A DNA stretch of 64,000 bases from Pantoea coffeiphila. Lineage in GTDB: Bacteria > Pseudomonadota > Gammaproteobacteria > Enterobacterales > Enterobacteriaceae. The notes under the pieces were generated by a model. That model saw nothing but the letters and a program-made list of their open reading frames with translations. It was not told where the DNA came from and searched no databases. Where the stretch lies: the NCBI RefSeq assembly GCF_016909495.1, contig NZ_JAFBFW010000005.1, positions 248,001 to 312,000 on the forward strand, in the 5' to 3' direction. The stretch's first letter is position 1, and every line of letters starts with the position of its first letter. A program made the position numbers and the translations under genes. This document shows, in pieces, positions 1-29,382 of the stretch.

Positions 1-43
1 TCGGGGTGCAGCAACAGGCGATAATGGCCAACGGACCAGCCGG

Positions 44-2641
44 TCAGTCAAAGGTGCCGCTAATTGACAGCACAAAATTACGCGGATCGCCGTACCAGTA
101 GCCGCCGAAAGTGCCGCCGACGGTAGAGTAGTAGGTTTTATCAAACAGGTTATTGCCCAGCAGGGCAACGCTCCAGTTGCGGTTAATGGCGTAGCCGATT
201 CTGGCGGAATACACCGCATAGAACGCGGTGTTGGCGTTGTAGTTGCGGATCGTATCGGTTTTCTCGTCGTACAAGGTGCCGAGCTGTTTGGTTTTACTCT
301 GCGCCTGCACGCCAACGCCAAAGCTGAACTTGCTTAAGGTCTCCCCGGCATCGTTAAACTGGAAGTCGTTCCACCATTTGATGGTGTGCTTTGGGGTAAA
401 CGTCGTAATGCTGTCGTTAAGGCCGTCCGGCGATGAAGACGATTTATTAAAGTTGTAAGTATAGCCCAGTGAGGTCTGCCACCACGGCTGCACGCTGCCG
501 GTGATCTCCAGATCCACGCCCTTGCTGATATCCGCTTCCGGCGCGTTGCGGTAATAGCCCTGGCGGCCGCCGCCCAGATCGACGGAGTTTCCGCCAATCA
601 GCTGCCCCTGATTCACCAGGCGGATTTGATACAGCGACAGCGACGCGTTCAGCATACCGCCCGGCTGGGCGTACTTGAGTCCGGTTTCCAGATTGCTGCC
701 GGTTTCCGGATCGATCTGCTGACCGGAGGGCGAGATCATATTGCTCTGCGGAATAAAGATTTTGGTATAGCTGCCGTACCAGCTCAGATCGTCGTTGATA
801 TCGTAGCTGACCGAGTAGTAGGGGCTTTCCCACTTGCGGGTAAATTCGCTGGTGTCGCTCTGGTCGTTGGCGGTACTGGTGTGGGTATTGCTTTTATAGG
901 CGTTCAGGCGTAGTCCTAAGCCAAAGTGCAGCGGCTTCCACGGCGTGAGCACCAGCTGCGAATACATCCCCCAGTTGATCGAGGAACCGCTACTCAGATA
1001 GGCGTAATAACCTGACGGGATGGACGGTGCCGGTACCGAAGTATCCCAGTTCCAGGGGTCCATTGAGGGACCGGTGTTGCCGAACCAGCCGCCGGTATTG
1101 CTTTCAGCATCCGGCGAGGTCATCCAGTAACTCTGTTTGGAATAATTAGCGCCCAGGGTCAGCTTCTGCGGCAGGCCGAAGACATCAAATTCACCGGCCA
1201 GCGTGGAGTCAAAAGAGAACTGTTTGTTGTTGCTGTTACCGCCGTCAGCGGTAATCGGATCGGCTGAGAACAGACCGGTATCCGGCATGATGCTCCCGGC
1301 GACGTTAGAATAAATCGTGCTGTTGCGCTGATACAGCCCGCTGTAGTTCAAATTGAAGTTCCAGCGGTCGCCAATTTTTTGATCCAGCTTGGCGAAAACT
1401 TCACGCGTGTCGGAGTCGGCTTTTTCCCACGGAAACACCCACGCCGTTTTACGGCTGAAGTGCGGGTCGTTGCCGTCCGAGTAAAGTGCCAGACCGTTAG
1501 ACAGCGGCACGCCGCGAATGCGCTGGTAGCTGCCGCCGAAGGTTAGCAGGGTTGAGTCGGTGAGATCGGCCTCCAGCATGCCGTAGGCCACGGTTTTTTC
1601 ATCTTTTGCGGTACGGTAAAAATGGTGGCTGTCCTTGCGGGTCAGCACGGCGCGCGCGCGCAGCGTACCGGCATCATTCAGCGGTGAGCTGAGGTCCAGC
1701 GAGTTCTGGTAGTTATCCCAGCTGCCCGCCGAGCCGTCGTACTTTAGCTGAAAGTGATCGAGCGGGCGCTTGCGCACCAGGTTGACGGTGCCGCCCGGTC
1801 CGGTGGTGCTGAAGCCGTTAAACAGATCGTCGGCACCGCGCAGGATCTCCACGTGATCGTACATCGACATATCAAAAGAGGGTGAAAAGCGTTTATTGAA
1901 GTTGGTGCCGCCGCTGATATCGATCGGCGATCCGCCGTCGATGCTGGCGCGGGTGATCTGAAAGCCGCGTGAGTAAAACGCCTGCTCGCGGGAGTTGTTG
2001 CCCTGCTGAACGGTGATGCCGGTGGCCTTTTGCATCGCATCGTTCAGGGTGCGAATACCCTGCTGCTGCATGGTTTCACTGGTGATCACGCTGACCGACT
2101 GCGGCGTGTCCTTGACGCTGGTGGCCCCCTTCGATCCGACGGTGAGCATGCTGCCGTTCAGGCTGCCGGAGCCCTCGGTGGCGGTGATATCGGTACTGCC
2201 GTTGACGCCGCCGATCGCGGTGGCCTGGTCCAGCGCGCCGTCCACCTGCACCGCGCCCAAAACCTCGGTGCCGTCGGTAGAGGCCACCGTGTTGCTGTAG
2301 ATCTGGATGGTATTGGTGCTGACGTATTTAAAGCCCAGCGAGGTGCCCGACAGCAGCGTGCGCAGCGCGTCATCCGCCGGGTAGCTGCCGCTGACCCCGG
2401 CGCTGGAAAGCCCGCTGGTCAGTTCGCTGGGTGCAATCAGCTGCAGCCCGCTTTGCTGACCAAAGGCCAGCAGTGCCCCGGCCAGCGAGCCGCCGCCGGG
2501 GATGCTGAAGTTATGCCGCAGTGCCTGGGTAGCGCTGTCTCCGGCGGGGGCTGCCTGCTGTGCCAGCGCGGAGGTGCCGCCCGCCAGGTTCCCGCCCAGC
2601 ACCGCCAGCATCAGCCAGGAGTGGTAGTGTTTCGATGCCAT
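44..2641 (-). CDS. TonB-dependent receptor with N-terminal STN signalling domain
   Basis: Predicted outer-membrane receptor of the TonB-dependent siderophore family, 865 aa. Visible parts: a signal peptide (about residues 1-27, ending SALA), a STN secretin/TonB short N-terminal domain (about 43-117), a plug starting near 170 (DTPQSVSVITSE, then SRGF), and a 22-strand-type barrel ending in an aromatic C-terminal strand (FVLSISGTFD). STN domains normally pass the ligand-bound signal to a FecR-type protein, and one lies at 9143-10120. It is 91 bp downstream of the M16 peptidase gene on the same strand and probably cotranscribed with it. The ligand cannot be read from sequence; a peptide siderophore, small protein or peptide is inferred from the neighbours. 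The 43 bases beyond its stop are at the window edge and could begin another gene. Confidence 0.9.
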   Translation of the reverse strand: MASKHYHSWLMLAVLGGNLAGGTSALAQQAAPAGDSATQALRHNFSIPGGGSLAGALLAFGQQSGLQLIAPSELTSGLSSAGVSGSYPADDALRTLLSGTSLGFKYVSTNTIQIYSNTVASTDGTEVLGAVQVDGALDQATAIGGVNGSTDITATEGSGSLNGSMLTVGSKGATSVKDTPQSVSVITSETMQQQGIRTLNDAMQKATGITVQQGNNSREQAFYSRGFQITRASIDGGSPIDISGGTNFNKRFSPSFDMSMYDHVEILRGADDLFNGFSTTGPGGTVNLVRKRPLDHFQLKYDGSAGSWDNYQNSLDLSSPLNDAGTLRARAVLTRKDSHHFYRTAKDEKTVAYGMLEADLTDSTLLTFGGSYQRIRGVPLSNGLALYSDGNDPHFSRKTAWVFPWEKADSDTREVFAKLDQKIGDRWNFNLNYSGLYQRNSTIYSNVAGSIMPDTGLFSADPITADGGNSNNKQFSFDSTLAGEFDVFGLPQKLTLGANYSKQSYWMTSPDAESNTGGWFGNTGPSMDPWNWDTSVPAPSIPSGYYAYLSSGSSINWGMYSQLVLTPWKPLHFGLGLRLNAYKSNTHTSTANDQSDTSEFTRKWESPYYSVSYDINDDLSWYGSYTKIFIPQSNMISPSGQQIDPETGSNLETGLKYAQPGGMLNASLSLYQIRLVNQGQLIGGNSVDLGGGRQGYYRNAPEADISKGVDLEITGSVQPWWQTSLGYTYNFNKSSSSPDGLNDSITTFTPKHTIKWWNDFQFNDAGETLSKFSFGVGVQAQSKTKQLGTLYDEKTDTIRNYNANTAFYAVYSARIGYAINRNWSVALLGNNLFDKTYYSTVGGTFGGYWYGDPRNFVLSISGTFD

Positions 2642-2732
2642 AAAGTGTGATTCCAGTCATGAGTTAGTGTTATCTCTGAGTGAACGAATCAGCGGCGAAA
2701 ACATCGCAACGAAAAACCGGCGGTAAAAAAAT

Positions 2733-5408
2733 TTATTTATACAGATCCTCCGGCTGAGGCGGGAAATGCCCGGCGGGCAGCGACAGAATGGCCGACAGTT
2801 CGTCGGCAATCGCGCTCACGGAGCCTTCAATCAGCCATTTTCCATACCCTGGTGCGATCGTCTGGCGTAACAGGGGATCGATCCGGTCCACGCTCATGTC
2901 GGCCAGTGCGCCCAGCAGCCGCTGGCGGTAATCCTCCGGCAGCCCTTCGCGCAGCAGCGACTCCTGCTGGCACAGCGCCTCGAAGTCATTGCCCACCGGA
3001 CGGCCCAGCCGCAGCTGCTCGATCTGGATCAGCCCGGCCAGTTCCTGCGCGGTCAGCGGGCGGTCGCCCAGCAGGGCATCGCATTCGCGGCGAATGGCGC
3101 GCACCGCCGCCAGAGTGCTCCCGGCGGCCACGCTCAGTTCAAAACCCAGCAGGCGGCTGCCCGGCAGCGACTGCATCAGCGGCGTGACGTTATAGGTCAG
3201 GCGATCCACCTCGCGCAGGGCGAAGTTAATGCGCGAGGCAAAGCTGGCGGCCAGCAGCGGATGGATCAGCTGCACGGCGGCATCGTGCGACGATCCGCTG
3301 CCCGGCAGCACAAACCACGCCTTCAGCGTGCTCACCGCCGATGCGGGGTTATCGATCAGCAGCAGTGCGCCCGCGCTATCGGCCGGGGGGATTGCCGGTT
3401 TCTCCGGGGCCGACACCGCGCCGGGCTGCCACTGCGCCAGGCTGTTTTCCAGCAGCGCGATGAGCTGTTCAACGGGGAGCGAACTGCGCAGCAGCAGGGT
3501 GGCATTGTGCGGCTGATAGTGCCGCTGATAAAACGCACTCGCCGCCTCGGGCGTCAGCTGCGCCAGTCCGTCAGGGGTGCCCTGAATAAACGCCGGGCGC
3601 TTCAGCGGGTGCTGCGGCGGGAAGCTAATCGCCGGTAAGGCCCATGCCGTGTTGTCGAGATCGTTGAGTACCTGGCGGTAATGCTCGCGGTGCGCCTCCA
3701 CGCTTTCCGTCGAGGTCGGGTCACGGTGCAGCACCGCGCTCAGGTGATGGAAAACCTGTGCGGCATTCGGCTCCGGCATCTGCATTCTCAGCGCGATGCT
3801 GGTTGCGCCAACGTCCAGCGCGATGCCCGCGTCCTGCGACCACAGCCACTGTTCCAGGGTAATACCGTCGTTTTCACCACCTGCGACCAGCCCGGCAACC
3901 AGTTGCGCCAGGCCGTCGTGCTGCGGGGGATCGAACTGCGATCCGGCGTTGACGATCAGGCTGGCGCTGAGCAATCCCGGCTGCATTGCCGGAACCACAA
4001 CGATCTTCAGGCCGTTTGACAAGATCCGCCGTTCGGCAACCGGCGCTGGGGCCAGCGGCGCGACGGTAATCGGCGGTGGGGTCAGAGCGGGGGCGGGATC
4101 GCGGCGGGCGGCCACGGTAGTAATCGGATCGACGGTGACCACCAGCCTCCCCTGATGCAGCCAGCGCTGCGCCGCCGCAACCACGGTTTCAGCGGGCATG
4201 TTCAGCGCCTGAACCACCCGCTGGCGCAGACCTTCGGCGCGCTGCGGCGAGAGTTCGTGGCGGCCCAGCGCGGCGGCCAGCGTCAGGGGATCGGCCCACT
4301 CGGATCGCGCATTTTCCAGCAGCTGCTGCTGGCTGTGCTGAAGCAGGTCGGGGTTCAGCGGGCTGGTGCGCATCTCGTCCAGCGCCGCCAGGGTGTGGCG
4401 CTCCACCTCGTCCGCGCTGACGCCCGGCTGCAGTTCGATGCGCAGATTGAAATAGCTTGCCAGCATGCCGGATTCCACGAAGGCCGAAATCTCGGTGGCA
4501 AACTGATTATCCACCATCAGCCGCACCACCAGCGGCGACCAGGCGGTATCGGCCAGCACCCCGGCAAACAGCTCCAGCGCGGTGGCATCCTCCTCCCCGA
4601 ACGCTGGGATTGTCCAGCAGATGCGCAGCAGCCGGTTGTCGATGTGGTCCTGTAGCCGCAGGCGTTTTTCGTGCGCCAGCGCAGGCAGCCAGCGCTGCAC
4701 GGTTTCCCGTGCTGTGCCCGGTACGATGTTGCCAAACCAGTGCTGCACTTTTACCCGCGCGGCGTCAGTGGTGACCGCCCCCGCGAGGGTAATCACCGCA
4801 TTGTCAGGCCGGTAAAAATGCTGACTCCACGCCTGCACATCGGCATAGCTGACCTGCTGTAAATCGGCACGTTCACCGGCCACTTTATGGGCATACGGAT
4901 GCTCCGCCGGAAACAGATGGCGCAGGATCGCTCCCTGCACCGCGCCCAGCGGCTGCAGCTCGTTCTCTTCCATTTCACGAGTGACCACATCGCGCTGCAC
5001 TTCCAGCGCTTGCGGCGACAGTCCACCTGCCAGCCAGCCCATCCGGTCCGCTTCAGCAAACAGCGTATAGTCCAGCGATCCCGGTGGTACCGACTGGAAA
5101 AACTGGGTGATATCGGCGCTGGTTACGCCGTTCAGCCCTTCGGCTCCGGCGCGCTCCAGGTGGCTGATATAGCTGCCCGGCAGGGCGGCGCTGCCGGAAA
5201 ACATCAGGTGCTCCATCAGATGCGCCAGGCCAAAGCGACCGACGGGCTCATCCTTCGCGCCAACGCCGTAGGCCACGTGGACCGCCACTGTGGGTGAATC
5301 TGCGTTTTCAAGCACCAGCAGGGTCAGGCCGTTATCAAGGATAACGCGCTGGAAAGGGATCTCGGGCAGCGCGGCCGCGAGATTTGGGGTGGTGGTGACG
5401 TCGTTCAT
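2733..5408 (-). CDS. M16 family zinc metallopeptidase (PqqL/FusC-like)
   Basis: Two-lobed M16 (pitrilysin/insulinase) peptidase, 891 aa. The N-terminal half has the inverted zinc motif HLMEH (His63, Glu66, His67) and the downstream glutamate in VVTREMEENE (about Glu145), so this half should be catalytic. The C-terminal half has lost the motif, as is usual for the family. It precedes a TonB receptor gene and is divergent from two YddA-type ABC transporters, the grouping known for PqqL-YddB-YddA in E. coli and FusC-FusA-FusD in Pectobacterium. Odd: no signal peptide is visible and the frame has no upstream start, whereas FusC and PqqL are exported to the periplasm. Either the enzyme is cytoplasmic here or the export signal is unrecognised. 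Its substrate is presumably whatever the neighbouring receptor imports (inference). Confidence 0.85.
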   Translation of the reverse strand: MNDVTTTPNLAAALPEIPFQRVILDNGLTLLVLENADSPTVAVHVAYGVGAKDEPVGRFGLAHLMEHLMFSGSAALPGSYISHLERAGAEGLNGVTSADITQFFQSVPPGSLDYTLFAEADRMGWLAGGLSPQALEVQRDVVTREMEENELQPLGAVQGAILRHLFPAEHPYAHKVAGERADLQQVSYADVQAWSQHFYRPDNAVITLAGAVTTDAARVKVQHWFGNIVPGTARETVQRWLPALAHEKRLRLQDHIDNRLLRICWTIPAFGEEDATALELFAGVLADTAWSPLVVRLMVDNQFATEISAFVESGMLASYFNLRIELQPGVSADEVERHTLAALDEMRTSPLNPDLLQHSQQQLLENARSEWADPLTLAAALGRHELSPQRAEGLRQRVVQALNMPAETVVAAAQRWLHQGRLVVTVDPITTVAARRDPAPALTPPPITVAPLAPAPVAERRILSNGLKIVVVPAMQPGLLSASLIVNAGSQFDPPQHDGLAQLVAGLVAGGENDGITLEQWLWSQDAGIALDVGATSIALRMQMPEPNAAQVFHHLSAVLHRDPTSTESVEAHREHYRQVLNDLDNTAWALPAISFPPQHPLKRPAFIQGTPDGLAQLTPEAASAFYQRHYQPHNATLLLRSSLPVEQLIALLENSLAQWQPGAVSAPEKPAIPPADSAGALLLIDNPASAVSTLKAWFVLPGSGSSHDAAVQLIHPLLAASFASRINFALREVDRLTYNVTPLMQSLPGSRLLGFELSVAAGSTLAAVRAIRRECDALLGDRPLTAQELAGLIQIEQLRLGRPVGNDFEALCQQESLLREGLPEDYRQRLLGALADMSVDRIDPLLRQTIAPGYGKWLIEGSVSAIADELSAILSLPAGHFPPQPEDLYK

Positions 5409-5557
5409 GCAGGCTCCAGAAACAGGGGATATATCGGGAAAGTTCGATGCAGACAGAACGAGTCAGGCCGCATTTTTCCACAATTTTCCCGTACGTTTGT
5501 GGATTAACGGCGGCTTGATCGTTCTCTGGATATCTGGAAACCCTGTGGATATTTGCC

Positions 5558-7330
5558 ATGTCAGTTGATGAACAACCTGCTGCCACCCGCAGCTATAAAC
5601 TGAACGCGCTGTTTTTTCGTCGGCTCTGGACGCTGAGCGCTCCCTACTGGTGCCGTCGCGAGGCCTGGAAGGCGTGGTCGATTATGGCGATGCTGCTCTC
5701 CTCCGCCGCCGCCTTCAGCCTGGTCGGCGGCTATATCTCGAATCTGGTGGCGGACTCCACCAATGCGCTGGTGGCCAAACAGAGCATCTACTGGCGGATT
5801 ATGATCTGGATGACCTTCGTGGGCCTGATGCAGACCCTGGCGCTGCAGGTCACCAGCTGGTTCAGTGCCTGGCTGCTGCTGGACTGGCGTAAATGGATGA
5901 CGAACCATCTGCTCAACGCCTATATGCACAACCGCACCTACTATGAAATTGAGAAAGACGGCTTTATCGATAACCCGGACCAGCGGTTACAGGAGGAAGT
6001 GCCGTCGGTGTGCCAGACGGTGATCGGTGTCCCGCAGTTTATTCTCAGCTCGCTGATGACCATTGCGGTGCAGGCCAGCATTATTGTGCAGGTTTCGCCG
6101 GGCATGTTCTGGGCGGTGGTGATCTATGCCGGAGTGAACACGCTGGTCTCCATGTGGCTCTATAACCCGACGATCCGGCAGAGCTGGGATTTGACCGTGG
6201 CCCAGGCGCGTATGCGTACCGGGCTGATGCACCTGCGTGATAACGCGGAAACCATCGCCTTCTATCGTGGTGAAAACAGCGAAAGAAAGGGGCTGCACCA
6301 GCGGCTGCGCGATGTGGCAAGAGTCAAAATGACGATGATTTTTTACGGCATCCGCATGAGCGTGGTGAATCAGGTGATGGGCCTGATCTTCAGCCTGCTG
6401 CCGATCTTTTTTGTCGTGCCGCTCTACTTCAGCGGCAAGGTGGCCTACGGCTCGATCGATCAGGTCGGGGCGGCGGCGGCGATGGTGCTCTCCGGCCTGT
6501 CGGTGATCTCTAACTTTATTCCCACCATGACCAGCACCATGCCGAGCGTGGTGAGACTGTCCGAGATTCAGGAAAAATTCAATCAGCTCAACGATCCCCG
6601 ACGGGTGCAGGAGGCGGCACGCATCCGCCATCGCGAAGGGGAGATCGTGGTGCTGGAACAGGTGGATGTCGCCACGCCCGGTGGCGAACAGCAGCTGGTG
6701 CGCAACCTTTCCCTGCGCGTGGAAGAAGGCCAGCACACGCTGATCGCCGGCCAGACCGGTGTGGGTAAAAGCTCGCTGCTGCGGGCGATTGCCGGGCTGT
6801 GGCGGCGCGGTGAAGGCGAGATACAGCTGCCGCCGTATCAGCAGCTGATGTTTATTCCGCAGAAGCCCTACATGATCCTCACCGATTTACGCTCCCAGCT
6901 GCTGTACCCGGAACCGGCGGAAAGCGCGGAGGATGTGCGGATACAGCAGGCGTTTGTTCGCCTCGGCAGGCCGGATTTCCTGGCAAAGCAGGGCGGGCTG
7001 GACTGCATTAAGGACTGGCGCAAGGTGCTGTCATTGGGCGAGCAGCAGCTGGTGGCGTTTGCCCGCATTTTGCTGCGCCAGCCGCGCTATGTGTTTCTGG
7101 ATGAGGCCACCAGCGCGATGGATGTGGAAACCGAACGCCAGGCCTATCGCGCACTCGGCGAGGCGAATATCACCTGCATCAGCGTCGGGCATCGCGAAAC
7201 GCTGCTGCAGTTTCATCCGCAGAAGCTGCACCTGCTGGCTCACGGCGAGTGGCGGCTGACGCAGCATCGCGAAGAGGCCTCGCCGGATGCCGATTCCGAT
7301 TCATTTCATCTTCAGGCCCGGGCGGTCTGA
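5558..7330 (+). CDS. SbmA/YddA-type ABC transporter, permease fused to ATPase (first copy)
   Basis: Inner-membrane half-transporter of 590 aa. The N-terminal membrane domain of the SbmA/BacA/ABC_membrane_2 type carries the family hallmark DNPDQRL (about residue 145). The C-terminal nucleotide-binding domain has Walker A GQTGVGKSS (near 397), signature LSLGEQQ, Walker B YVFLDEATSAMD (near 512) and an H-loop in SVGHRET. Members of this group move peptides or peptide-like molecules, and YddA lies with a TonB receptor and M16 peptidase in E. coli. The start ATG follows GGAT spaced 6 bases away. A homologous second gene begins 30 bp after its stop, so the two probably form a heterodimer. Transport direction is unknown. 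Confidence 0.88.
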   Translation: MSVDEQPAATRSYKLNALFFRRLWTLSAPYWCRREAWKAWSIMAMLLSSAAAFSLVGGYISNLVADSTNALVAKQSIYWRIMIWMTFVGLMQTLALQVTSWFSAWLLLDWRKWMTNHLLNAYMHNRTYYEIEKDGFIDNPDQRLQEEVPSVCQTVIGVPQFILSSLMTIAVQASIIVQVSPGMFWAVVIYAGVNTLVSMWLYNPTIRQSWDLTVAQARMRTGLMHLRDNAETIAFYRGENSERKGLHQRLRDVARVKMTMIFYGIRMSVVNQVMGLIFSLLPIFFVVPLYFSGKVAYGSIDQVGAAAAMVLSGLSVISNFIPTMTSTMPSVVRLSEIQEKFNQLNDPRRVQEAARIRHREGEIVVLEQVDVATPGGEQQLVRNLSLRVEEGQHTLIAGQTGVGKSSLLRAIAGLWRRGEGEIQLPPYQQLMFIPQKPYMILTDLRSQLLYPEPAESAEDVRIQQAFVRLGRPDFLAKQGGLDCIKDWRKVLSLGEQQLVAFARILLRQPRYVFLDEATSAMDVETERQAYRALGEANITCISVGHRETLLQFHPQKLHLLAHGEWRLTQHREEASPDADSDSFHLQARAV

Positions 7331-7359
7331 TTTTCTTAATTTTTCGCAGGGTATGACTG

Positions 7360-9111
7360 ATGGCCGTGATGTTATCGGAACTGAAAAACGATCAAAACCG
7401 GCACCGGTTAAATCGCCTGTTCTTTCGCCGCGTGTGGCAGCTGGCCGCACCTTACTGGACCCGTAAAGGGGCATGGAAATCCTGGCTGACGGTGGGCATT
7501 CTCTGCCTGATGATGGGCGGCTTCAGCCTGGCGGGGGCGAAATTCACCCAGCTGACCGCCGATGTCACCAACGCGCTGGTGGATAAGCGCACCGATCTCT
7601 ACTGGGAGCTGTTTACCTGGCTGACGGTGCTCGGCGTGCTGCGCTTCGGTGCAGATCTGGTGCAGCAGCTGATCGATTCGATGCTGGCGATGCACTGGTG
7701 GCGCTGGCTGACCGAATACATTATGGATAACTACCTCTACCGCCACGCCTACTACCATATTTTGCAGGATGAGAAGATCGACAACCCCGATCAGCGCATT
7801 CAGCAGGAGGTAGAACCATTCTGCGGTACGGTGGGCGCGTTCCCTCGCCAGTTCCTCGGCTCGCTGATGGATATGGGCGTACAGACCACCATTATGATGA
7901 GCATCTCTACCCCGATGTTCTTCGGGGTGATCGGTTTTGCGCTGTTCCAGGCGGTGGCGATGTATTACATCAACCGGCCCACCATTAAACAAAACTTCGA
8001 CGTCACCGTGGCCGAAGCGGATTTGCGCTACGGGCTGACCCACGTGCGCAACAATGCGGAGAATATTGCGTTTTACCGCGGCGAGTCGGTAGAAGTCGGC
8101 CATATCGGCACCCGGCTGCTCAACGCCACCCGCAAACAGATGCGGGCAAACGTCTACGGTATTTATATGCAGTTGATGAACGAGGGTGTGGGCCAGGTGT
8201 GGAACTATCTGCCGCTGATTATCCTCGTGCCGGTCTATTTCCGTGGCGATATCAGTTACGGCAGCATCGCACAGGCCACCGCTTCGGCTACCATGTTGTT
8301 GAATAGCCTGTCGGTGTTGACCACCTATATCCCAATGCTCAGCCAGACCGTACCGAACGTGGTGCGACTGGCGGAGATCCACGAAACCTTCCTTAAGCTG
8401 CAGGAAAATCAGGTCGATGAAAAAAATCATCTGGTGATGAAGCCCGGTAAAACCATTGCGCTGAGCAACGTCAGCCTGAAAACGCCCGGCGGCGAGCAGT
8501 CGCTGGTGCAAAACCTTAATCTTGAGCTGCCGGAAGACAGCCGCCTGATCATCGTTGGCCGCACCGGGGTGGGGAAAAGCTCGCTGCTGCGCGCCATCGG
8601 CGGGCTGTGGCAGACCGGGCAGGGCAGTGTGACGCTGCCGCAGGAGGAAGGGGGCTGCCTGTTCCTGCCCCAGCGCCCCTATACCTTTGAAGGCGATCTG
8701 CGTAGCCAGATCTGTTATCCCGCGGCGCAGTCGCCGGTCAGCGATGAGACGCTGGCGGCGCTGCTGGATAAAGTGTGCCTCGGCGATCTGCTGGCGCGCC
8801 ACGGTCCGCTGGACCGGGTGGCCGACTGGCCGCGCGTTTTGTCGCTGGGCGAGCAGCAGCGCATTGCCTTCGCCCGTATGCTGCTGATTAAGCCGCGCTA
8901 TCTGTTCCTGGATGAAGCCACCAGCGCCGTCGATTTGCAGACCGAAGCGGCGCTGTATCAACTGCTGGAAGACGTGGGAACGGCGTGGATCAGCGTCGGG
9001 CACCGGCCAAGCGTGATGCGCTTTCATCGGCAGGCGCTGCGGCTGCATGAGGGAGGAAGCTGGGAGCTGCTGACCATGGCACAGCTGAACGAACTGGCGG
9101 ACGGCGACTGA
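7360..9111 (+). CDS. SbmA/YddA-type ABC transporter, permease fused to ATPase (second copy)
   Basis: Second half-transporter, 583 aa, clearly paralogous to the gene just upstream: same layout, same IDNPDQRIQQEV motif, Walker A GRTGVGKSS (near 400), signature LSLGEQQR, Walker B YLFLDEATSAVD (near 515) and H-loop SVGHRPS. Both ATPase sites look intact, which fits a heterodimer with two working sites or two homodimers. AGGG about 9 bases before the ATG serves as ribosome binding site. It is followed by a strong hairpin and then by the convergent FecR-like gene. The tandem pair is unusual next to an M16 peptidase: the E. coli YddA locus has one copy. Confidence 0.88.
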   Translation: MAVMLSELKNDQNRHRLNRLFFRRVWQLAAPYWTRKGAWKSWLTVGILCLMMGGFSLAGAKFTQLTADVTNALVDKRTDLYWELFTWLTVLGVLRFGADLVQQLIDSMLAMHWWRWLTEYIMDNYLYRHAYYHILQDEKIDNPDQRIQQEVEPFCGTVGAFPRQFLGSLMDMGVQTTIMMSISTPMFFGVIGFALFQAVAMYYINRPTIKQNFDVTVAEADLRYGLTHVRNNAENIAFYRGESVEVGHIGTRLLNATRKQMRANVYGIYMQLMNEGVGQVWNYLPLIILVPVYFRGDISYGSIAQATASATMLLNSLSVLTTYIPMLSQTVPNVVRLAEIHETFLKLQENQVDEKNHLVMKPGKTIALSNVSLKTPGGEQSLVQNLNLELPEDSRLIIVGRTGVGKSSLLRAIGGLWQTGQGSVTLPQEEGGCLFLPQRPYTFEGDLRSQICYPAAQSPVSDETLAALLDKVCLGDLLARHGPLDRVADWPRVLSLGEQQRIAFARMLLIKPRYLFLDEATSAVDLQTEAALYQLLEDVGTAWISVGHRPSVMRFHRQALRLHEGGSWELLTMAQLNELADGD

Positions 9112-9118
9112 CTGTGGG

Positions 9119-9142
9119 GCGCTAAGGCGGTGGCCTTAGCGC
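9119..9142. terminator. Hairpin between convergent genes
   Basis: A perfect 10-bp inverted repeat (GCGCTAAGGC and GCCTTAGCGC, 4-base loop) sits between the ABC gene stop and the convergent fecR-like stop. The T-run is short (CTTATTT), so it is a plausible but weak bidirectional terminator. Confidence 0.6.
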
Positions 9143-10120
9143 TTATTTGCGCTCGCGCAGCCAGACTACCGGACCGACCCGGCTGATGTTCACCGGCAGC
9201 GACTGCTGCAGGCCGTCGTACCAGTCGTCGAGATGGTTGATGTCGATAATGGCGTTGAGCTTAACCGCCGCCAGACGCTCGCTGTTAAACACGATCACCC
9301 GCTTATCGTAGCGCTTCAGGGTGGCGAGAATGGTCCCCAGCGGTTGCTCCTCGAAGACCAGCTGCCCCTGATGCCAGGAGAGCACCTGGCCGGCATTGAC
9401 CGAAGTGATTTTCGCGCTGTCCTGCCCGCCGTGCAGCTCCGCCTGCTGGTTCGCGTTCAGCTGCATATCGGGATGATCCCTGCGGCTCAGTTCGACCCTG
9501 CCGCGCTCCACGGTGACCACCATACCGTCGCCATCACGCTGCACGCCAAAGGCGGTGCCCAGCACTTTGACTTCGCCAACGCCCGCATCAACGATAAACG
9601 GCTGTACCGGGTTATGCACCACGTCGAAGAAGGCTTCACCGCGCGCCAGCCGCACGAAGCGCTGCCCGGAATTCACCCGCACATCCGCCGCGCTGTCGGC
9701 ATCCAGCCACATGCGGCTGCCGTCATCCAGCGCCAGCATGCGCTGCTCCCCGCTGGAGGTATAGTGATCGTACTGCCAGCGCGACAGCCAGTTTTGGGTC
9801 ATGATTGCCGAGAACAGCAGCAGCCCCGCGGTGGGCAGCATAATCTGCCAGCGCCACAAGCGGCGGCGCGCCTGCTCGTGCGGAGAGATACCGCTCAGGG
9901 CATCCGGCTGATAGTAGTTTTCCAGCGACATCCCCATGCTGACCCACAGACCACGCGCATCCGCCAGCGCGGCTTCATGGCGGCTGTCGGCGCTGCGCCA
10001 GCGCTCAAAAGCCGCCAGCTCATCGCTGGTGATATCACCCGAGGTCAATCGCACCAGCCAGGTTACGGCCTGCGTATTGATTTCCGTCGTGTGCTCTGTG
10101 TTGTCCCCGGTCACTGGCAT
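9143..10120 (-). CDS. FecR-like transmembrane anti-sigma/sigma regulator
   Basis: 325 aa with the FecR layout: a cytoplasmic N-terminal domain (about 15-85, with WLVRLTSGDI and FERWRSADSRHEAAL), one membrane helix (about 91-110), a periplasmic FecR domain (about 118-215, with GSRMWLDADSAADV, RGEAFFDV and VLGTAFGV) and a C-terminal STN-like domain that normally contacts the receptor's signalling domain. FecR proteins relay ligand binding at an STN receptor to an ECF sigma factor. The STN receptor at 44-2641 is the obvious partner, although the two ABC genes and the peptidase lie between. No FecI-type sigma gene exists upstream: only about 370 bp separate it from divergent fhuD. The sigma factor must be elsewhere or lost. 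Confidence 0.87.
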   Translation of the reverse strand: MPVTGDNTEHTTEINTQAVTWLVRLTSGDITSDELAAFERWRSADSRHEAALADARGLWVSMGMSLENYYQPDALSGISPHEQARRRLWRWQIMLPTAGLLLFSAIMTQNWLSRWQYDHYTSSGEQRMLALDDGSRMWLDADSAADVRVNSGQRFVRLARGEAFFDVVHNPVQPFIVDAGVGEVKVLGTAFGVQRDGDGMVVTVERGRVELSRRDHPDMQLNANQQAELHGGQDSAKITSVNAGQVLSWHQGQLVFEEQPLGTILATLKRYDKRVIVFNSERLAAVKLNAIIDINHLDDWYDGLQQSLPVNISRVGPVVWLRERK

Positions 10121-10491
10121 CGATCAGCGCCGGTCCGCATCAGGTTGGGTGGACATCCGGTAACTCCCTTTGGCAGACAGGTAAAATGTATGATTACAGT
10201 ATGTTATGCGAAATCCGGCATCCTTCCGGTAAACCCTTATCGTAGCATAATTCAGCCCGTATCCGCGCAGGCGTGCCGGGGACGATAGCAGCCCCGGTTC
10301 TCCGCGAACGGCATAATTCAATGAAGAAACGAACGACGGAGGGATTTTCATCAATCAATATGAAAAATTTTTCATCAAAGGCGCGATGACCGGCATCGGC
10401 GATCGTTTATCGGATCAACGCCCGGCTTTTTTGGCGCTGACCGACGGCTCAGGCATAATGCGACTCATTCGTAAATTGATGCCTTAACGTT
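10121..10491. promoter_or_regulatory. Divergent intergenic region fecR-like/fhuD with Fur-box candidate
   Basis: This 371-bp gap holds the promoters of the two divergent genes. At 10454-10472, CATAATGCGACTCATTCGT matches the Fur consensus GATAATGATAATCATTATC at 12 of 19 positions and lies about 20 bp upstream of the fhuD start, where a repressor would block transcription. A ten-codon reading frame (MSTQPDADRR) ends just before the fecR-like start and might be a leader or chance. No sigma-factor coding sequence was found in either strand. Confidence 0.5.
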
Positions 10492-11385
10492 ATGACCTTA
10501 ACCTCTGAACAGCATACCCGCCGTCGCCTGTTGATGCTGCTGGCGTGTTCGCCGCTTTTTGTCACGCCGGGACTCCTGGCTGCGCCTGCCGATCCCCACC
10601 GGGTTATTGCCCTGGAATGGCGGCCGGTGGAGCTGCTGCTGGCGCTGGGGATTATGCCGCTGGCGGTTGCCGATCTGCCTAACTATCGCCGCTGGGTGGT
10701 GGAGCCGGTTCTCGCCCCTGATGTCATTGACGTTGGGCTGCGCAACGAGCCCAATCTTGAGCTGCTGCAGCGCCTCAAGCCGTCGCTGATGCTGCTATCG
10801 CGCGGTTTTGGCCCAAACGCCAAACGCATCAGCACGCTTTCCCCGCAGTGGACCAGCCAGTTCAGCACCGCAGAGCGCGGGCCGCTGGCCAGCACCGTGG
10901 CCGATATTCATACGCTCGGCAGCCTGCTGGGCAGAGACGCCGAGGCCGATCGCTATCTGGCCGCCATGGATCGGCGGCTGAATACCAGCGCAGAGCGGCT
11001 ACAGGGCTACCGGCAGGAAAAGCTGCTGATGTTCAGCTTCCTCGACAGCCGCCGGGTGATGGTATTCGGCAAGGGCAGCCTGTTCGGCGATATTCTGAGC
11101 CGTCTGGGGCTGAACAGCGCCTGGCAGGGGGAAACCAACCAGTGGGGCAGTACCATCGTCGGGATTGAACGCCTGGCGAAGATGGAGGGCGTGCGGGCGC
11201 TCTGCTTCCTGCACGGCGATGATGATCCGATGCGCGAGATCGCCCATGCCCGGTTGTGGCGCAGTATTCCGTTTGTGCGTGAAGAGAAACTGCATCTGCT
11301 GCCAGCGGTGTGGTTCTTCGGCGCTAACTTTTCCGCGCTGCGTTTCTGTCAGCTGCTGGAACAGACGCTGGAGGCCAGGGTATGA
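10492..11385 (+). CDS. fhuD: Ferric-hydroxamate ABC transporter, periplasmic binding protein FhuD
   Basis: Periplasmic binding protein for iron(III)-hydroxamate siderophores, 297 aa (E. coli FhuD 296). Strong similarity is seen through ALEWRPVELLLALGI, DVGLRNEPNLELL, AWQGETNQWGST and PAVWFFGA. The N-terminus TRRRLLMLLACSPLF is a twin-arginine-like signal, as in E. coli FhuD, which uses Tat export. The gene overlaps fhuB by 4 bp and is led by a Fur-box candidate. The usual fhuC ATPase that precedes fhuD in E. coli is missing. Confidence 0.93.
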   Translation: MTLTSEQHTRRRLLMLLACSPLFVTPGLLAAPADPHRVIALEWRPVELLLALGIMPLAVADLPNYRRWVVEPVLAPDVIDVGLRNEPNLELLQRLKPSLMLLSRGFGPNAKRISTLSPQWTSQFSTAERGPLASTVADIHTLGSLLGRDAEADRYLAAMDRRLNTSAERLQGYRQEKLLMFSFLDSRRVMVFGKGSLFGDILSRLGLNSAWQGETNQWGSTIVGIERLAKMEGVRALCFLHGDDDPMREIAHARLWRSIPFVREEKLHLLPAVWFFGANFSALRFCQLLEQTLEARV

Positions 11386-13322
11386 GCCGCGGGTTATGGC
11401 TGGTTTTACCGGTATTAGCGCTGGCGCTGATGGCAGGAAATTTTATGCATCAGCTGGATTTTCAGCTGTGGTGGCAGGCGATTACTGCACCCGATGAAAG
11501 CGACGTCAGCCAGATGCTGTTTCACTTCAGCCTGCTGCCCCGCACGGTACTGGCACTGTTGGTCGGTGCCGGGCTGGGCGTGGCGGGTATCCTGTTTCAG
11601 CAGATCCTGCGTAACCCGCTGGCCGAACCGTCAACGCTTGGCGTCGCCGCCGGTGCTCAGCTCGGCCTGACGCTGGCGATCCTGTTTGCGCCTGCATGGG
11701 GAGAGACGGGCCAGCAGCTGGCGGCGCTGGCCGGAGGCTTATCCGCCGGGGCGGTGGTGCTGGCTATCGCCTGGGGGCGGCAGCTCTCGCCGGTCACGCT
11801 GATCCTTGCCGGGCTGGTGTTCGGTCTTTACAGCGGGGCGATAAAAAGCCTGCTGGCGTTGTTTAACCACGAACGGCTACAAAACCTGTTTATCTGGAGC
11901 AGCGGCATGCTGAACCAGTATGACTGGAGCGCGGTGCAGTTTCTCTGGCCGCGTATGCTGGCGGCCATGGTATTGATTGTGCTGATGATCCGCCCGCTGA
12001 CGCTGCTGGGGCTGGACGACAGCGTGGTGCGCAACCTGGGCATGCGGCTGGCGCTGGTGCGCATCAGCGGACTGCTGCTGGCCGTGGCGCTGAGCGCGCT
12101 GACCGTTGCCAGCGTGGGGGTGATTGGCTTTATCGGCCTGTTCGCGCCGGTGCTGACCCGGCTGCTGGGCGTGCGGCGGCTCGGCCCCCGGCTGTTCTGC
12201 TCCGCAGCGCTGGGGGCGGGCCTGCTGCTGATTAGCGATCAGGCGGTGATGCTGCTGGCCCACCACTGGCGCGAGCTGCCAACGGGCGCGGTGACCGCGC
12301 TGATCGGTGCGCCGCTGATGCTGTGGATGCTGCCGCGCCTGCGTCATACCAAGGTGGCGAACTCCGCTGCCCCGGTCACCGAACGTGCACGCGGAGCCTC
12401 GCGTTATCTCCCGCTGCTGGTGGCGGGCGGACTGCTGCTGCTGATCGCCGCCGCGCTGTTCAGCGGTGACGGTGGGCAGTGGCTCATTTCCGACCTCTCA
12501 TTGCTCCAGTGGCGCTGGCCGCGCGTACTGGCTGCGGCGGCGGCGGGGGCGATGCTGGCGGCGTCCGGCATGCTGATACAGCGGATGACCGGTAACCCGA
12601 TGGCCAGCCCGGAAGTGCTGGGGGTCAGCTCCGGCGCGGCCTGTGCCATTGTGCTGCTGATGTTCCTCGTCTCCGGTGATGTGGATAGCTGGCTGCTGCC
12701 TGCCGGAACGGCGGGGGCGATGCTGACGCTGGGGGTCATGGTGATGCTCTCCCGCCGGGAAGGGTTTTCCGCCACCCGGCTGCTGCTGGTGGGGATTGCA
12801 CTGAGTACCATTTACGGCACGCTGCTGACCCTGTTCCTCGCCAGCGGCGATCCGCGCAGCGGCGTGGTGCTGAGCTGGCTGGCAGGTTCAACTTATCGGG
12901 TAACCGGTGAGCAGGCGCTGGGCGTATCGCTGCTGGCCGTGCTGCTGCTGGCGCTGATCCCGCTGCTGCGCCGCTGGCTGACGGTGCTGCCGCTGGGCGG
13001 CGTGACGGCATCCAGCGTTGGCGTGCCGATGCTCAAGTCCCGGCTGTTGATCCTGCTGCTGTCGGCCGGACTGATCGCCGCCGCCACGCTGATGATTGGC
13101 CCGCTGAGTTTTGTTGGTTTAATGGCTCCACATCTGGCGCGCCTGCTGGGCTGGCACCGGCCGCTACCGCAACTGGCCGCGGCGGCTACCATCGGCAGCA
13201 GTATGATGCTGCTGGCGGATCTGCTGGGCAGGGTGGTGATTTTTCCCTATCAAATTCCGGCGGGTTTGCTGGCAACCTTTATCGGTGCCCCCTGCTTTAT
13301 CTGGTTGTTGCGCCGGCGATAA
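11382..13322 (+). CDS. fhuB: Ferric-hydroxamate ABC transporter, double-length permease FhuB
   Basis: Inner-membrane permease of 646 aa, made of two homologous FecCD-type halves in one chain (about 1-320 and 335-646), as in FhuB of E. coli (660 aa). Each half has the RNPLAEPSTLGVAAGA / GNPMASPEVLGVSSGA signature and a late GFIGLFAPVLTR / SFVGLMAPHLAR coupling segment that would contact the ATPase. ATGA overlap with fhuD indicates translational coupling. With no ATPase gene here, it must borrow one, probably a FhuC encoded elsewhere. Confidence 0.93.
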   Translation: MSRGLWLVLPVLALALMAGNFMHQLDFQLWWQAITAPDESDVSQMLFHFSLLPRTVLALLVGAGLGVAGILFQQILRNPLAEPSTLGVAAGAQLGLTLAILFAPAWGETGQQLAALAGGLSAGAVVLAIAWGRQLSPVTLILAGLVFGLYSGAIKSLLALFNHERLQNLFIWSSGMLNQYDWSAVQFLWPRMLAAMVLIVLMIRPLTLLGLDDSVVRNLGMRLALVRISGLLLAVALSALTVASVGVIGFIGLFAPVLTRLLGVRRLGPRLFCSAALGAGLLLISDQAVMLLAHHWRELPTGAVTALIGAPLMLWMLPRLRHTKVANSAAPVTERARGASRYLPLLVAGGLLLLIAAALFSGDGGQWLISDLSLLQWRWPRVLAAAAAGAMLAASGMLIQRMTGNPMASPEVLGVSSGAACAIVLLMFLVSGDVDSWLLPAGTAGAMLTLGVMVMLSRREGFSATRLLLVGIALSTIYGTLLTLFLASGDPRSGVVLSWLAGSTYRVTGEQALGVSLLAVLLLALIPLLRRWLTVLPLGGVTASSVGVPMLKSRLLILLLSAGLIAAATLMIGPLSFVGLMAPHLARLLGWHRPLPQLAAAATIGSSMMLLADLLGRVVIFPYQIPAGLLATFIGAPCFIWLLRRR

Positions 13323-13339
13323 TTCCTTCCTGCTGCAAT

Positions 13340-13361
13340 CCCTCTCCTTAACCGGAGAGGG
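13340..13361 (+). terminator. Hairpin after fhuB
   Basis: Perfect 8-bp stem (CCCTCTCC and GGAGAGGG, 6-base loop) 17 bp after the fhuB stop. No T-run follows, so termination would be weak or Rho-assisted. Confidence 0.4.
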
Positions 13362-13428
13362 CAATCCTGTTTCGCAGCGCGAATTTTTAGCTTGATCTGG
13401 AAAGAATGAGTCGGATAATCGCAAGCTC

Positions 13429-13447
13429 AATAATAAGTATTATCATT
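13429..13447 (+). promoter_or_regulatory. Fur box candidate upstream of siderophore receptor
   Basis: AATAATAAGTATTATCATT matches the 19-bp Fur consensus at 12 positions and is a near-palindrome of NATWAT units. It ends 22 bp before the receptor start, placing it over the likely promoter, so iron-repressed expression is expected. Confidence 0.65.
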
Positions 13448-13469
13448 CCATACACAGACAGGATAAGAG

Positions 13470-15686
13470 ATGTCCGCTTCATATTCCCCCTCTGGCCGAT
13501 TCCGCCTGAAACTGCTGGCGCTGGCCGTCGGCGCTGCAACGTTGCCAGCCATGGCAGCAACCGAAACCCGTCAAACCGCAACCTCCCCAGCCAGCAACGA
13601 GCAGACACTGACGGTCACCGCGACTGCTGATTCTCAGTTCACTCCAGGCGGCGATAAGCTGGTTCCTGCCTATCTTGACGGGCAGGTAGCGAACGGCGGC
13701 CGCATGGGGATGCTGGGCCAGCAGGACGCGCGTAATGTGCCGTTTAACATCGTCAGCTACACCTCCAAACTGATTCAGGATCAGCAGGCCAAAACCATCA
13801 AAGATGTGGTCGCTAACGATGCGTCGATCCAGAACGTGCAGGGCTACGGTAACTTTGCGGAGACCTACCGCATTCGCGGCTTCGATCTCAACGGCGATGA
13901 CATGACCTTCGGCGGCCTGTCCGGTGTGATGCCGCGCCAGGTGGTATCGACCCAGATGGTGGAGCGTGTTGAGGTGTTCAAAGGTGCCAATGCGCTGATG
14001 AACGGCAGCGCGTCGAGCGGCGTGGGCGGGATGATTAACCTCGAACCTAAACACGCGGATGATGTGCCGTTGACCCGCGTAGGCGTTGACTACACCGGCA
14101 AAAACCAGCTGGGTGCCAGCATTGATGCCGGTCGCCGCTTTGGCGACAACAATCAGTGGGGCGCGCGCGTTAACCTGCTGGACCGAGAAGGCGAAACCGC
14201 GGTGGATAATGAGAAACGCCGCACCACGCTGGCCTCCATCGGCCTGGACTATCGCGGCGATCGGCTGCGCACCTCCCTCGATATGGGTTATCAGAAGCAG
14301 GCCTTCCACGGCGGTCGGCTGGGCGTGAACGTCAGCGGCGTGGATTTCATTCCTGAAGTACCGAAAGCCACCAGTAACTACAGCCAGGACTGGGTATACA
14401 GTAACCTGGAAAGCGAATTCGGCATGGCGCGCGCGGAGTATTACGTTGCCCCGGACTGGACGCTGTACGGTGCGCTCGGCGGGCAGCACTCTCACGAATA
14501 CGGTGCCTACGGCACGCCGAAACTTACGGATGCCAGCGGCAATGCGGTGATTGGCCGTATGGATACCAATAAATTTGTCGATGCCTTCAGCGGTCAGGCC
14601 GGTATTCGCGGCCAGTTTGCCACCGGCGTGGTGAACCACAGCGTTAACCTCGGCTATTCGGCGATGAACCGTCGTGAGAAAACCTCCTACGGCATGGCGA
14701 AAGCGGCCGAAGCCGTTGGCACCAATATTTATGAGCCTTCCGCCGTTAACCCGCCGGAGATGACCTCATTCGGTGGCGATCTCAACTCTCCGCGCCCAAC
14801 CAGTCGCGTGCGCAGCCAGGGATTCCTGCTGTCGGATACGCTGGGAATGTTTGACGACAAGCTGCTGCTGACCCTGGGTGCTCGCCATCAGAAAGTGGTG
14901 GTGCGCAACTACTATTACGGTACGGCAATTGAGAAGGACAAAGAGCGCTTCACCAAAAATCGCTGGACGCCTGCCTACGGTATCGTGTTCAAACCGTGGG
15001 AGTCGATTTCTCTCTACGCTAACCACATCGAGTCGCTGTCTCCGGGCGAGACGGCACCGTCAACGGCTACGGCTAATCCGGGTACCGTTTCTGGTATCTC
15101 GCTGGCGAAGCAGAATGAAGTGGGCGTGAAGTTTGATTCAGGCCGGGTCGGCGGCTCGCTGGCGCTGTTTGAAATCAAAAAGCCGAAAGGGCTGACCAAC
15201 CCTGAAACCAAATACTTCTCGCTGGACGGCGAGCAGCGTAACCGTGGCGTGGAGCTGAACGTCTTCGGCGAGCCGGTATTTGGCCTGCGCCTGAACGGCA
15301 GCGCGACCTGGCTCGATCCGAAAATGACCAAAACTCAGAACGGCACCAACGACGGTAAGAACGCGGTGGGCGTAGCCGAGTTTTACACCGTGCTGGGCGC
15401 GGAGTATGACATCAAGCCAATCGACGGTCTGACCGCCACCGCGCGCCTGACCCACTCCGGTTCGCAATATGCCAACGCGGCGAACACCAAAAAGCTGGAT
15501 GCGTATACCACGCTGGATCTCGGTGCGCGCTACCGCATGAAGGTGCAGGACAACGACCTGGTCTGGCGCGTGGGCGTGGATAACGTCACCAATAAACGCT
15601 ACTGGTCTGGCGTGGAGAGCGGCGGCACCTATATTTACCAGGGCACGCCGCGACAGTTGAAAGTGTCGATGTCTTACGACTTCTGA
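13470..15686 (+). CDS. TonB-dependent siderophore receptor (FcuA/ferrichrome-type)
   Basis: Outer-membrane siderophore receptor, 738 aa. A signal peptide (about 1-29, ending AMA) is followed by a plug with NVPFNIVSYTSKLI, YRIRGFDLNGDD and VERVEVFKGANALMNG, and a barrel ending in LKVSMSYDF. There is no STN domain, unlike the receptor at 44-2641. The family resemblance is to the Yersinia FcuA group of hydroxamate receptors, and the neighbouring fhuD-fhuB genes support a ferrichrome or ferrioxamine ligand; the exact ligand is uncertain. AGGA 6 bases before the ATG fixes the start. It has its own Fur-box promoter and terminator and is probably transcribed separately from fhuDB. Confidence 0.9.
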   Translation: MSASYSPSGRFRLKLLALAVGAATLPAMAATETRQTATSPASNEQTLTVTATADSQFTPGGDKLVPAYLDGQVANGGRMGMLGQQDARNVPFNIVSYTSKLIQDQQAKTIKDVVANDASIQNVQGYGNFAETYRIRGFDLNGDDMTFGGLSGVMPRQVVSTQMVERVEVFKGANALMNGSASSGVGGMINLEPKHADDVPLTRVGVDYTGKNQLGASIDAGRRFGDNNQWGARVNLLDREGETAVDNEKRRTTLASIGLDYRGDRLRTSLDMGYQKQAFHGGRLGVNVSGVDFIPEVPKATSNYSQDWVYSNLESEFGMARAEYYVAPDWTLYGALGGQHSHEYGAYGTPKLTDASGNAVIGRMDTNKFVDAFSGQAGIRGQFATGVVNHSVNLGYSAMNRREKTSYGMAKAAEAVGTNIYEPSAVNPPEMTSFGGDLNSPRPTSRVRSQGFLLSDTLGMFDDKLLLTLGARHQKVVVRNYYYGTAIEKDKERFTKNRWTPAYGIVFKPWESISLYANHIESLSPGETAPSTATANPGTVSGISLAKQNEVGVKFDSGRVGGSLALFEIKKPKGLTNPETKYFSLDGEQRNRGVELNVFGEPVFGLRLNGSATWLDPKMTKTQNGTNDGKNAVGVAEFYTVLGAEYDIKPIDGLTATARLTHSGSQYANAANTKKLDAYTTLDLGARYRMKVQDNDLVWRVGVDNVTNKRYWSGVESGGTYIYQGTPRQLKVSMSYDF

Positions 15687-15720: not shown

Positions 15721-15755
15721 AAATGCCCGGCCTTAACAGGCTGGGCATTTTTTTT
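15721..15755 (+). terminator. Rho-independent terminator after siderophore receptor
   Basis: A 12-bp stem with one wobble pair (AAATGCCCGGCC and GGCTGGGCATTT, 6-base loop) is followed by eight Ts, 35 bp after the receptor stop. Confidence 0.9.
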
Positions 15756-15785
15756 AACTTAATGAAGAAGAGGGAGAGGTCAGCG

Positions 15786-29053: not shown

Positions 29054-29140
29054 TGGTGCGAAGAGAGGGACTTGAACCCTCACGTCCGTAAGAACACTAA
29101 CACCTGAAGCTAGCGCGTCTACCAATTCCGCCACCTTCGC
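29054..29140 (-). tRNA. tRNA-Leu (CAG)
   Basis: 87 nt with encoded CCA, long variable arm, anticodon CAG in GCTTCAGGTG. Last of three tandem copies, equivalent to the leuQPV cluster of E. coli. Confidence 0.95.
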
Positions 29141-29175
29141 GTCCTGTTGATTTTTCTTATTCACATCACCGCATT

Positions 29176-29262
29176 TGGTGCGAAGAGAGGGACTTGAACC
29201 CTCACGTCCGTAAGAACACTAACACCTGAAGCTAGCGCGTCTACCAATTCCGCCACCTTCGC
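29176..29262 (-). tRNA. tRNA-Leu (CAG)
   Basis: 87 nt, identical to the copy at 29054-29140 over its visible length. Spacers between copies are 33-35 bp, consistent with one precursor transcript. Confidence 0.95.
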
Positions 29263-29295
29263 GCAGATGCTGCGTAATATGAATAACATGGTTTT

Positions 29296-29382
29296 TGGTG
29301 CGAAGAGAGGGACTTGAACCCTCACGTCCGTTAAGACACTAACACCTGAAGCTAGCGCGTCTACCAATTCCGCCACCTTCGC
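29296..29382 (-). tRNA. tRNA-Leu (CAG), first copy with variant variable arm
   Basis: 87 nt, promoter-proximal copy. It differs from the other two in the variable arm (TGTCTTAACGGACG instead of TGTTCTTACGGACG). The arm can still pair. Confidence 0.95.

Follow-up and report, generated by a model that had tools for sequence, protein, structure and literature searches.

What does a locus do that combines a TonB-dependent receptor, an M16 peptidase and two ATP-binding cassette (ABC) half-transporters? The question is raised by the left end of the stretch of Pantoea coffeiphila DNA analysed here (64,000 nucleotides, referred to as the window), which is C5:248001-312000 of contig C5 in a genome of 5.74 Mb; positions marked w are C5 positions minus 248000. 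A preliminary description of this DNA recognized five genes in a 10-kb block and took them for a variant of the Fus and YddAB-PqqL systems, with a signalling-competent receptor, a duplicated transporter, a peptidase lacking a visible signal peptide and no FusB-like TonB protein, together forming a signal-inducible importer of an iron-bearing peptide or small protein that is perhaps taken up whole for cleavage in the cytoplasm. The five genes do lie where they had been placed, with the domains and intact motifs ascribed to them. They belong to a larger unit of eleven genes, which, we suggest tentatively, may be a cassette, mobile and complete in itself, for importing and digesting a peptide.

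Fus (FusABCD), by which Pectobacterium takes up ferredoxin, and the Escherichia coli YddAB-PqqL system are described, in parts of two papers, as ‘protease-associated import systems’ (PMC6793856, PMC7593965). Cargo of the Fus system is cleaved in the periplasm, according to sections of PMC7593965, and PqqL is reported in parts of PMC6793856 to be a periplasmic protein whose signal peptide is cleaved off. The cassette resembles both systems in having a TonB-dependent receptor, an M16 peptidase and a YddA/FusD-type ABC transporter. It differs from them in adding a dedicated ExbB and ExbD, an extracytoplasmic function (ECF) sigma factor, FecR, a thioredoxin fusion and an ABC pair of the heterodimer type; the main text of PMC6793856 mentions no thioredoxin, FecR or sigma factor.

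A block of eleven genes bounded by empty sites

Six further cassette genes were found in the 19 kb leftward of the window (locus L068), and the unit extends over C5:240115-258425, that is, 18,311 bp rather than 10 kb. Of this, 7,886 bp lie to the left of window base 1, and the right part, w 1..10425, lies within the window. The order along C5 is ECF sigma factor, TonB, ExbD, ExbB, second M16 peptidase (M16-2), thioredoxin fusion, receptor, first M16 peptidase (M16-1), ABC-A, ABC-B and FecR.

These limits are set by two genomes of the same genus, G011 and G013, in which similarity to the flanking DNA ends at C5:240114 and restarts at C5:258426. The unaligned DNA that separates the flank edges measures 170 bp in G011 and 77 bp in G013; identity is 91-96% in the main flank matches and 84-85% in two short stretches of G011. 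In both genomes, the left-flank gene for an amino-acid-binding protein (99% protein identity) adjoins FhuD (95% and 94%). The empty sites give the eleven-gene unit a natural definition: when close relatives are compared, its genes are either all there or all missing. No M16 match at E 1e-20 was obtained in 36 same-genus genomes, including G011 and G013. The block may have been gained in the window’s genome or lost in its relatives. A gene set bounded in this way makes the idea of an import-and-digest cassette directly testable.

The receptor, its presumed signalling partners and its probable energy supply

The receptor (w 44..2641, minus strand) has Pfam STN, Plug and barrel domains. Its presumed partners are at opposite ends of the cassette: FecR, a FecR-type anti-sigma/signal transducer (w 9143..10120, minus strand; FecR 3.8e-21, DUF4880 1.7e-12), and the FecI-like ECF sigma factor (C5:240414-240920, plus strand; Pfam Sigma70_r2/r4_2). 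A cell-surface signalling set is thus complete in one locus, in keeping with the signalling competence ascribed to the receptor. The arrangement is like FecA-FecR-FecI and FpvA-type signalling in its STN receptor, its FecR with DUF4880 and its FecI-like sigma factor; it is unlike FecA-FecR-FecI in that downstream transport is allotted to an ABC half-transporter pair and peptidases, and not to FecBCDE. By analogy with FecA/FecR/FecI-like induction, as treated in part of PMC11658791, cargo binding to the receptor would be signalled by the STN domain via FecR to the sigma factor, which would turn the cassette on.

The apparent lack of a TonB protein was true of the window alone. TonB (C5:241087-241944, minus strand; TonB_C 4.4e-14; 6.1-6.9 kb left of the window), ExbD (C5:241941-242369, minus strand; ExbD 3.8e-30) and ExbB (C5:242381-243487, minus strand; MotA_ExbB 1.3e-31) sit, together with the ECF sigma gene, at a distance of 4.5-7.6 kb from the left edge of the window, so that the ‘missing TonB’ is an artefact of the window edge. 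The cassette therefore has its own TonB protein, as Fus has FusB according to sections of PMC7593965. This dedicated TonB-ExbB-ExbD set would power the passage of the cargo by way of the receptor to the periplasm.

By family, the receptor is a siderophore receptor with an STN domain and not a member of the FusA/YddB family. It scores 250.6 bits against TIGR01783 (siderophore receptor; cut-off 223.5), and its best matches in the PDB are the pyochelin, pyoverdine and alcaligin receptors, FhuE and related proteins also being found. At E 0.001 the receptor (P0001) matches 24 PDB sequences, among them neither the YddB structure nor FusA (4zgv); at the same threshold YddB matches only its own structure and FusA (5e-79). 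A BLASTP comparison of YddB with the window receptor gave no match even at E 10. As an observation apart, seven close relatives of the receptor (P0172, P0175, P0183 and P0186-P0189) share one metagenome-assembled genome name and one length of longest contig (1,120,983), which suggests many paralogous receptors in one genome.

The receptor’s family and structural matches would suit an ordinary ligand-induced importer of a ferric siderophore, in which import by the ABC pair would resemble that by YbtPQ or IrtAB and the M16 peptidases and thioredoxin would open or trim a non-ribosomal peptidic siderophore, releasing iron. We consider this somewhat unlikely. The 18.3 kb of the cassette contain no Fur site of at least 14/19 against the consensus; the best matches score 13/19, of which there are three (two being a single site read in both orientations), where 50 base shuffles lead one to expect 0.7, and the E. 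coli yddA region, used as a control, reaches 15/19. No siderophore reductase or esterase domain occurs in the eleven genes, and two M16 peptidases of ~900 residues would be an odd tool for siderophores that are cyclic or contain D-residues. The Fur result makes a role for iron somewhat less likely, and the receptor family speaks for one; an iron-bearing cargo, as first proposed, is conjectural.

The ABC transporter pair

Half-transporters A (w 5558..7330, plus strand) and B (w 7360..9111, plus strand) each consist of ABC_membrane_2 and ABC_tran domains, and the Walker A, LSLGEQQ and Walker B motifs of both ATPases are intact. They are 44% identical to one another and 24-25% identical to YddA (E 3e-38 and 2e-49); judged from these alignments, the pair are real but distant relatives of YddA. 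The ABC_membrane profile stays below its cut-off for both (27.3 and 19.9 vs 28).

In a phylogenetic tree the A and B subunits form separate clades (support 100/99 and 98/98), each of which holds members from the Erwinia-like locus of the window, Klebsiella, Marinomonas, G173 and G417. As both clades span the same five sources, the duplication is old, which points to a heterodimer; the duplicated transporter of the preliminary description is accordingly an old pair of distinct subunits. A single ABC gene is found in four variants of the locus, namely the C1 version, one Pantoea plasmid, Methylobacterium and G1020. In G173 (L093:5829-7892), a gene for a transporter of the ABC_membrane type overlaps the end of the thioredoxin-fusion gene by four bases.

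Exporter-fold ABC proteins that act as importers have been described, YbtPQ included, and IrtAB is an exporter-fold importer of siderophores, according to sections of PMC10246721 and PMC10967856; their existence would also suit a siderophore importer. The cassette pair is like YbtPQ and IrtAB in comprising two half-transporters with ATPase domains, for which heterodimer formation and import are likely, and unlike them in its transmembrane family, which is ABC_membrane_2 (ABCD/YddA type). In the reading that we favour, the A/B transporter would move the cargo whole from the periplasm to the cytoplasm.

The M16 peptidases and the thioredoxin fusion

M16-1 (w 2733..5408, minus strand; Pfam M16) has the motif HLMEH, and M16-2 (C5:243873-246575, plus strand) scores 9e-19 against Peptidase_M16, its start being taken at a TTG common to the Klebsiella and Marinomonas copies, although a longer ATG start exists. 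Residues H63, E66, H67 and E145, that is, HxxEH and the downstream glutamate, are invariant in 25 of 25 aligned M16 rows. The thioredoxin fusion (C5:246626-247879, plus strand; 417 residues) carries its thioredoxin domain (3.6e-24) at the N-terminus, with the Trx fold and the WCGPC motif of the TrxA type.

Were the locus a true Fus/YddAB-PqqL-type system, cleaving an iron protein in the periplasm, its peptidases might be expected to group with PqqL. We take PDB entries 6b03, 6b05 and 6brs to be FusC. These codes were not found in PMC6793856. M16-1 matches 6b03 over residues 19-282 only (1.5e-12) and PqqL in its N-terminal part only (1.3e-11), and matches the zinc peptidases 3amj and 4nnz better than either. 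M16-2 does show a partial match to 6b03 (3.1e-20, residues 21-427), which would favour kinship with Fus, as would the equivalence of roles (TonB-dependent receptor, M16 peptidase, YddA-type ABC transporter and TonB homologue); its match to 4nnz is far better (8.3e-46), whereas PqqL aligns with 6b03 from end to end (2.1e-58). In a tree of 51 M16 proteins, 14 PqqL-type rows group apart with support of 100/100 and without any cassette peptidase, and the peptidases of the cassettes join general zinc proteases in a group of 33 rows (97/98). This tree, in which FusC itself is not a row, is midpoint rooted and carries long-branch and composition warnings; five of 55 loci gave rows (L001, L049, L050, L051 and L055), 17 of 120 listed proteins were used, and five loci (L063-L067) were left out as too short, with no usable open reading frame (ORF).

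A Fus-type system is very improbable given these placements, the receptor’s failure to match YddB and the N-termini described below. The assignment to the Fus/YddAB-PqqL family falls on both counts, receptor and peptidase lying outside it. One refuting case named in the preliminary description, a peptidase that clusters with unrelated processing enzymes, applies in part, as the M16 proteins are of the general zinc-protease lineage and not PqqL-type. Relative to Fus and YddAB-PqqL, the M16 enzyme of the cassette is of another lineage, doubled and devoid of a signal peptide. In sequence terms, the likeness is one of function and not of descent as a unit, the parts being drawn from different families.

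The location of the peptidases was approached through a hydropathy measure, which can replace a signal-peptide predictor only roughly, applied to ORFs whose starts are mechanical except where annotated or chosen by hand. An N-terminal hydrophobic stretch is absent from 10 of 10 cassette M16 peptidases measured (maximum mean hydropathy 1.70), which come from seven of the eight M16-bearing loci, and present in 30 of 30 comparators (at least 1.97). M16-1 is among those without such a stretch, and the signal peptide reported as lacking is lacking by this measure. The M16 pair of Methylobacterium is in neither the tree nor this set of ten; one of its half-size proteins, with a hand-chosen start, gives 0.91. 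In the neighbouring, non-cassette group of the tree, 12 of 13 rows have signal-like N-termini, the exception being P0024, of unknown context. The thioredoxin fusions, and the TlpA-like protein of the C1 locus, also begin straight at their domains. Because signal-like N-termini are absent, the peptidases and the reductase are most likely cytoplasmic. Of the earlier proposal of whole import and cytoplasmic cleavage, the second part fits peptidases without signal peptides and a thioredoxin; the transport step is one that we infer.

M16 peptidases can also process the leaders of ribosomally synthesized and post-translationally modified peptides (RiPPs), PqqF being an example, and M16-1 has a weak, sub-cut-off match to PqqF (50.3 vs 320 bits). 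The locus could then be one for the biosynthesis and export of a RiPP-like peptide, in which M16 would cut off the leader and the ABC pair would carry the product out. This we find hardly credible: no modification-enzyme domain occurs in the eleven genes, and the STN receptor, FecR, sigma factor and TonB-ExbBD are parts for uptake and sensing. No intergenic ORF of at least 15 residues was found to be conserved in all three full loci; there are matches between the Erwinia-like and Klebsiella loci and none that convinces to Marinomonas (one match of five residues).

Conservation, variants and rarity

The nearest named relatives among the matches listed are Erwinia sp. S43 and S38 (M16-1 94%, receptor 95%). 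A wastewater plasmid of Klebsiella pneumoniae has FecR, ABC-B, ABC-A, M16, receptor, thioredoxin, M16, ExbB, ExbD, TonB, IS1 and sigma factor, that is, all eleven classes in the same order, IS26 lying to one side and IS1 to the other. Identity to the window’s proteins is 92-96% for the ABC proteins of this plasmid and 88% for its receptor, and among 72,556 plasmid records searched it alone holds most of the cassette DNA. Marinomonas spartinae has ten classes in the same order, from FecR to TonB, inside which the fetched locus ends; most of its proteins are 49-70% identical to their counterparts, the thioredoxin part of the fusion being 73% and its C-terminal part 43% identical. The recurrence of the same classes in the same order in Klebsiella and Marinomonas indicates a grouping beyond chance, and the genes are conserved together, so that the other of the two refuting cases in the preliminary description does not apply.

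Variants differ in content. A second, shorter version in the same genome, on C1 (L069:3944-15246), comprises sigma factor, FecR, one ABC gene, receptor, M16, thioredoxin, a protein of 295 residues and one that resembles TlpA, whereas ExbBD-TonB is missing from the stretch read; its receptor is 39% identical to that of the window, which suggests a different ligand. G237 has receptor, thioredoxin, a 290-residue protein, two ABC genes, ExbB, ExbD, TonB, M16, sigma factor and FecR. G173 and G417 have receptor, two ABC genes, thioredoxin fusion, TonB, ExbD and ExbB, with no M16, sigma factor or FecR in the stretches read; G173 has a PqqL-type M16 elsewhere in its genome. Two plasmids of Pantoea agglomerans carry variants without the thioredoxin. 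A third Pantoea plasmid (P. agglomerans CFBP8785) has a receptor and a cassette-type M16 gene, the latter split by an IS630 element (L079:14019-17776), and the stretch has no ABC gene of the cassette type. Methylobacterium bullatum has its M16 as two half-size genes and a distant sigma/FecR pair; TonB was not found at the locus. In G1020 the ABC, sigma, ExbB, ExbD, TonB and FecR genes are together, without M16.

The ABC clade takes in 11 loci, among which the receptor is present in 11, ExbB and ExbD in 10 each, TonB and FecR in 9 each, the sigma factor and M16 in 8 each and the thioredoxin in 7. In this count the third Pantoea plasmid is left out, the Marinomonas sigma factor could not be seen (the locus ends), and G1020 is credited with a receptor that lies ~10 kb away from its ABC gene but not with a TrxA-like gene ~10 kb to the other side, beyond unrelated ORFs. 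The locus is rare: ABC-B, used as a marker, was found in four of 392 family genomes (E 1e-100), and in one of 369 class and four of 398 phylum genomes (E 1e-90), where each count includes the window’s own genome and at most three candidates were scored per genome. Two of the phylum matches, G1086 and G1118, fall outside the ABC clade and lack the cassette.

The carriers bear on whether the cassette might be a detoxifier, by which an antimicrobial peptide is recognized, drawn in and destroyed. Two Pantoea carriers come from tobacco leaves and Sphagnum extract, and other named carriers include Brenneria and Kosakonia, which are plant associates. Reduction followed by proteolysis would suit a disulfide-rich defence peptide; SbmA/BacA-like transporters import antimicrobial peptides, and P0003 has a weak, sub-cut-off match to SbmA_BacA (20 vs 24 bits). 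On the other hand, the Klebsiella carrier is from wastewater, and TonB-powered uptake of a toxic peptide would be costly. We regard detoxification as improbable.

A proposed route for the cargo

In the import-and-digest reading, a cargo brought whole to the cytoplasm would have its disulfides reduced by the thioredoxin domain and the opened chain would be cut by both M16 peptidases, whose location is argued from their N-termini. The cargo would most likely be a peptide with disulfide bonds, encoded by a gene and some tens of residues long; it might bind metal, and would come from a plant host or from a microbe nearby. A fuller formulation is possible, if on the doubtful side: a plasmid-borne, ligand-induced machine that brings a peptide or small protein, still intact and folded or disulfide-bonded, across both membranes to the cytoplasm, for unfolding by a dedicated thioredoxin and digestion by two M16 peptidases there, with an all-helical domain coupling reduction to proteolysis. 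There is a parallel in lasso-peptide loci with an isopeptidase, a TonB-dependent receptor and a regulator, for which a search of one literature library gave no paper. The logic of receptor and peptidase, a peptide being taken in and opened, is alike; the cassette differs in having neither a precursor nor lasso-forming enzymes, and in its class of peptidase.

Several points weigh against the import-and-digest reading. A receptor of the siderophore family could point equally well to a small iron chelate and to a peptide, and the import direction of the ABC pair is also something that we infer. The thioredoxin is absent from four of the 11 loci and M16 from three, so that neither is universal, and a search of the whole genomes of G173 and G417 at E 1e-15 gave no cassette-type M16. 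Finally, among 11 further M16 relatives of unknown context, P0017 (1.99) exceeds the lowest comparator (1.97) in the hydropathy measure.

If the proposal is true, the cassette would offer peptides a whole pathway from the cell exterior to the cytoplasm, and one that can be transferred, unlike Fus, which cuts in the periplasm; it would then be relevant to the ways in which bacteria use host peptides as food or neutralize them.

Neighbouring genes and minor observations

Long open frames antisense to ABC-B (w 7408-9048, minus strand) and to FecR (w 9233-10288, plus strand) are taken as artefacts of high GC content. Upstream of FecR, w ~10124-10389 matches Klebsiella L076:12904-13174 as translated ORFs on both strands, and is perhaps a regulatory region. 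Just beyond the cassette, w 10492-15686 encodes consecutively a FhuD-like protein, a FhuB-like protein and a second receptor of the siderophore type; a FhuC ATPase was not seen in that stretch, the next ORF (w 15723-16415) having no NCBIfam match. Further along, outside the cassette, there is a strong Fur-box-like site (17/19) at w 28583, and three tRNA-Leu(CAG) genes are in tandem at w 29054-29382.

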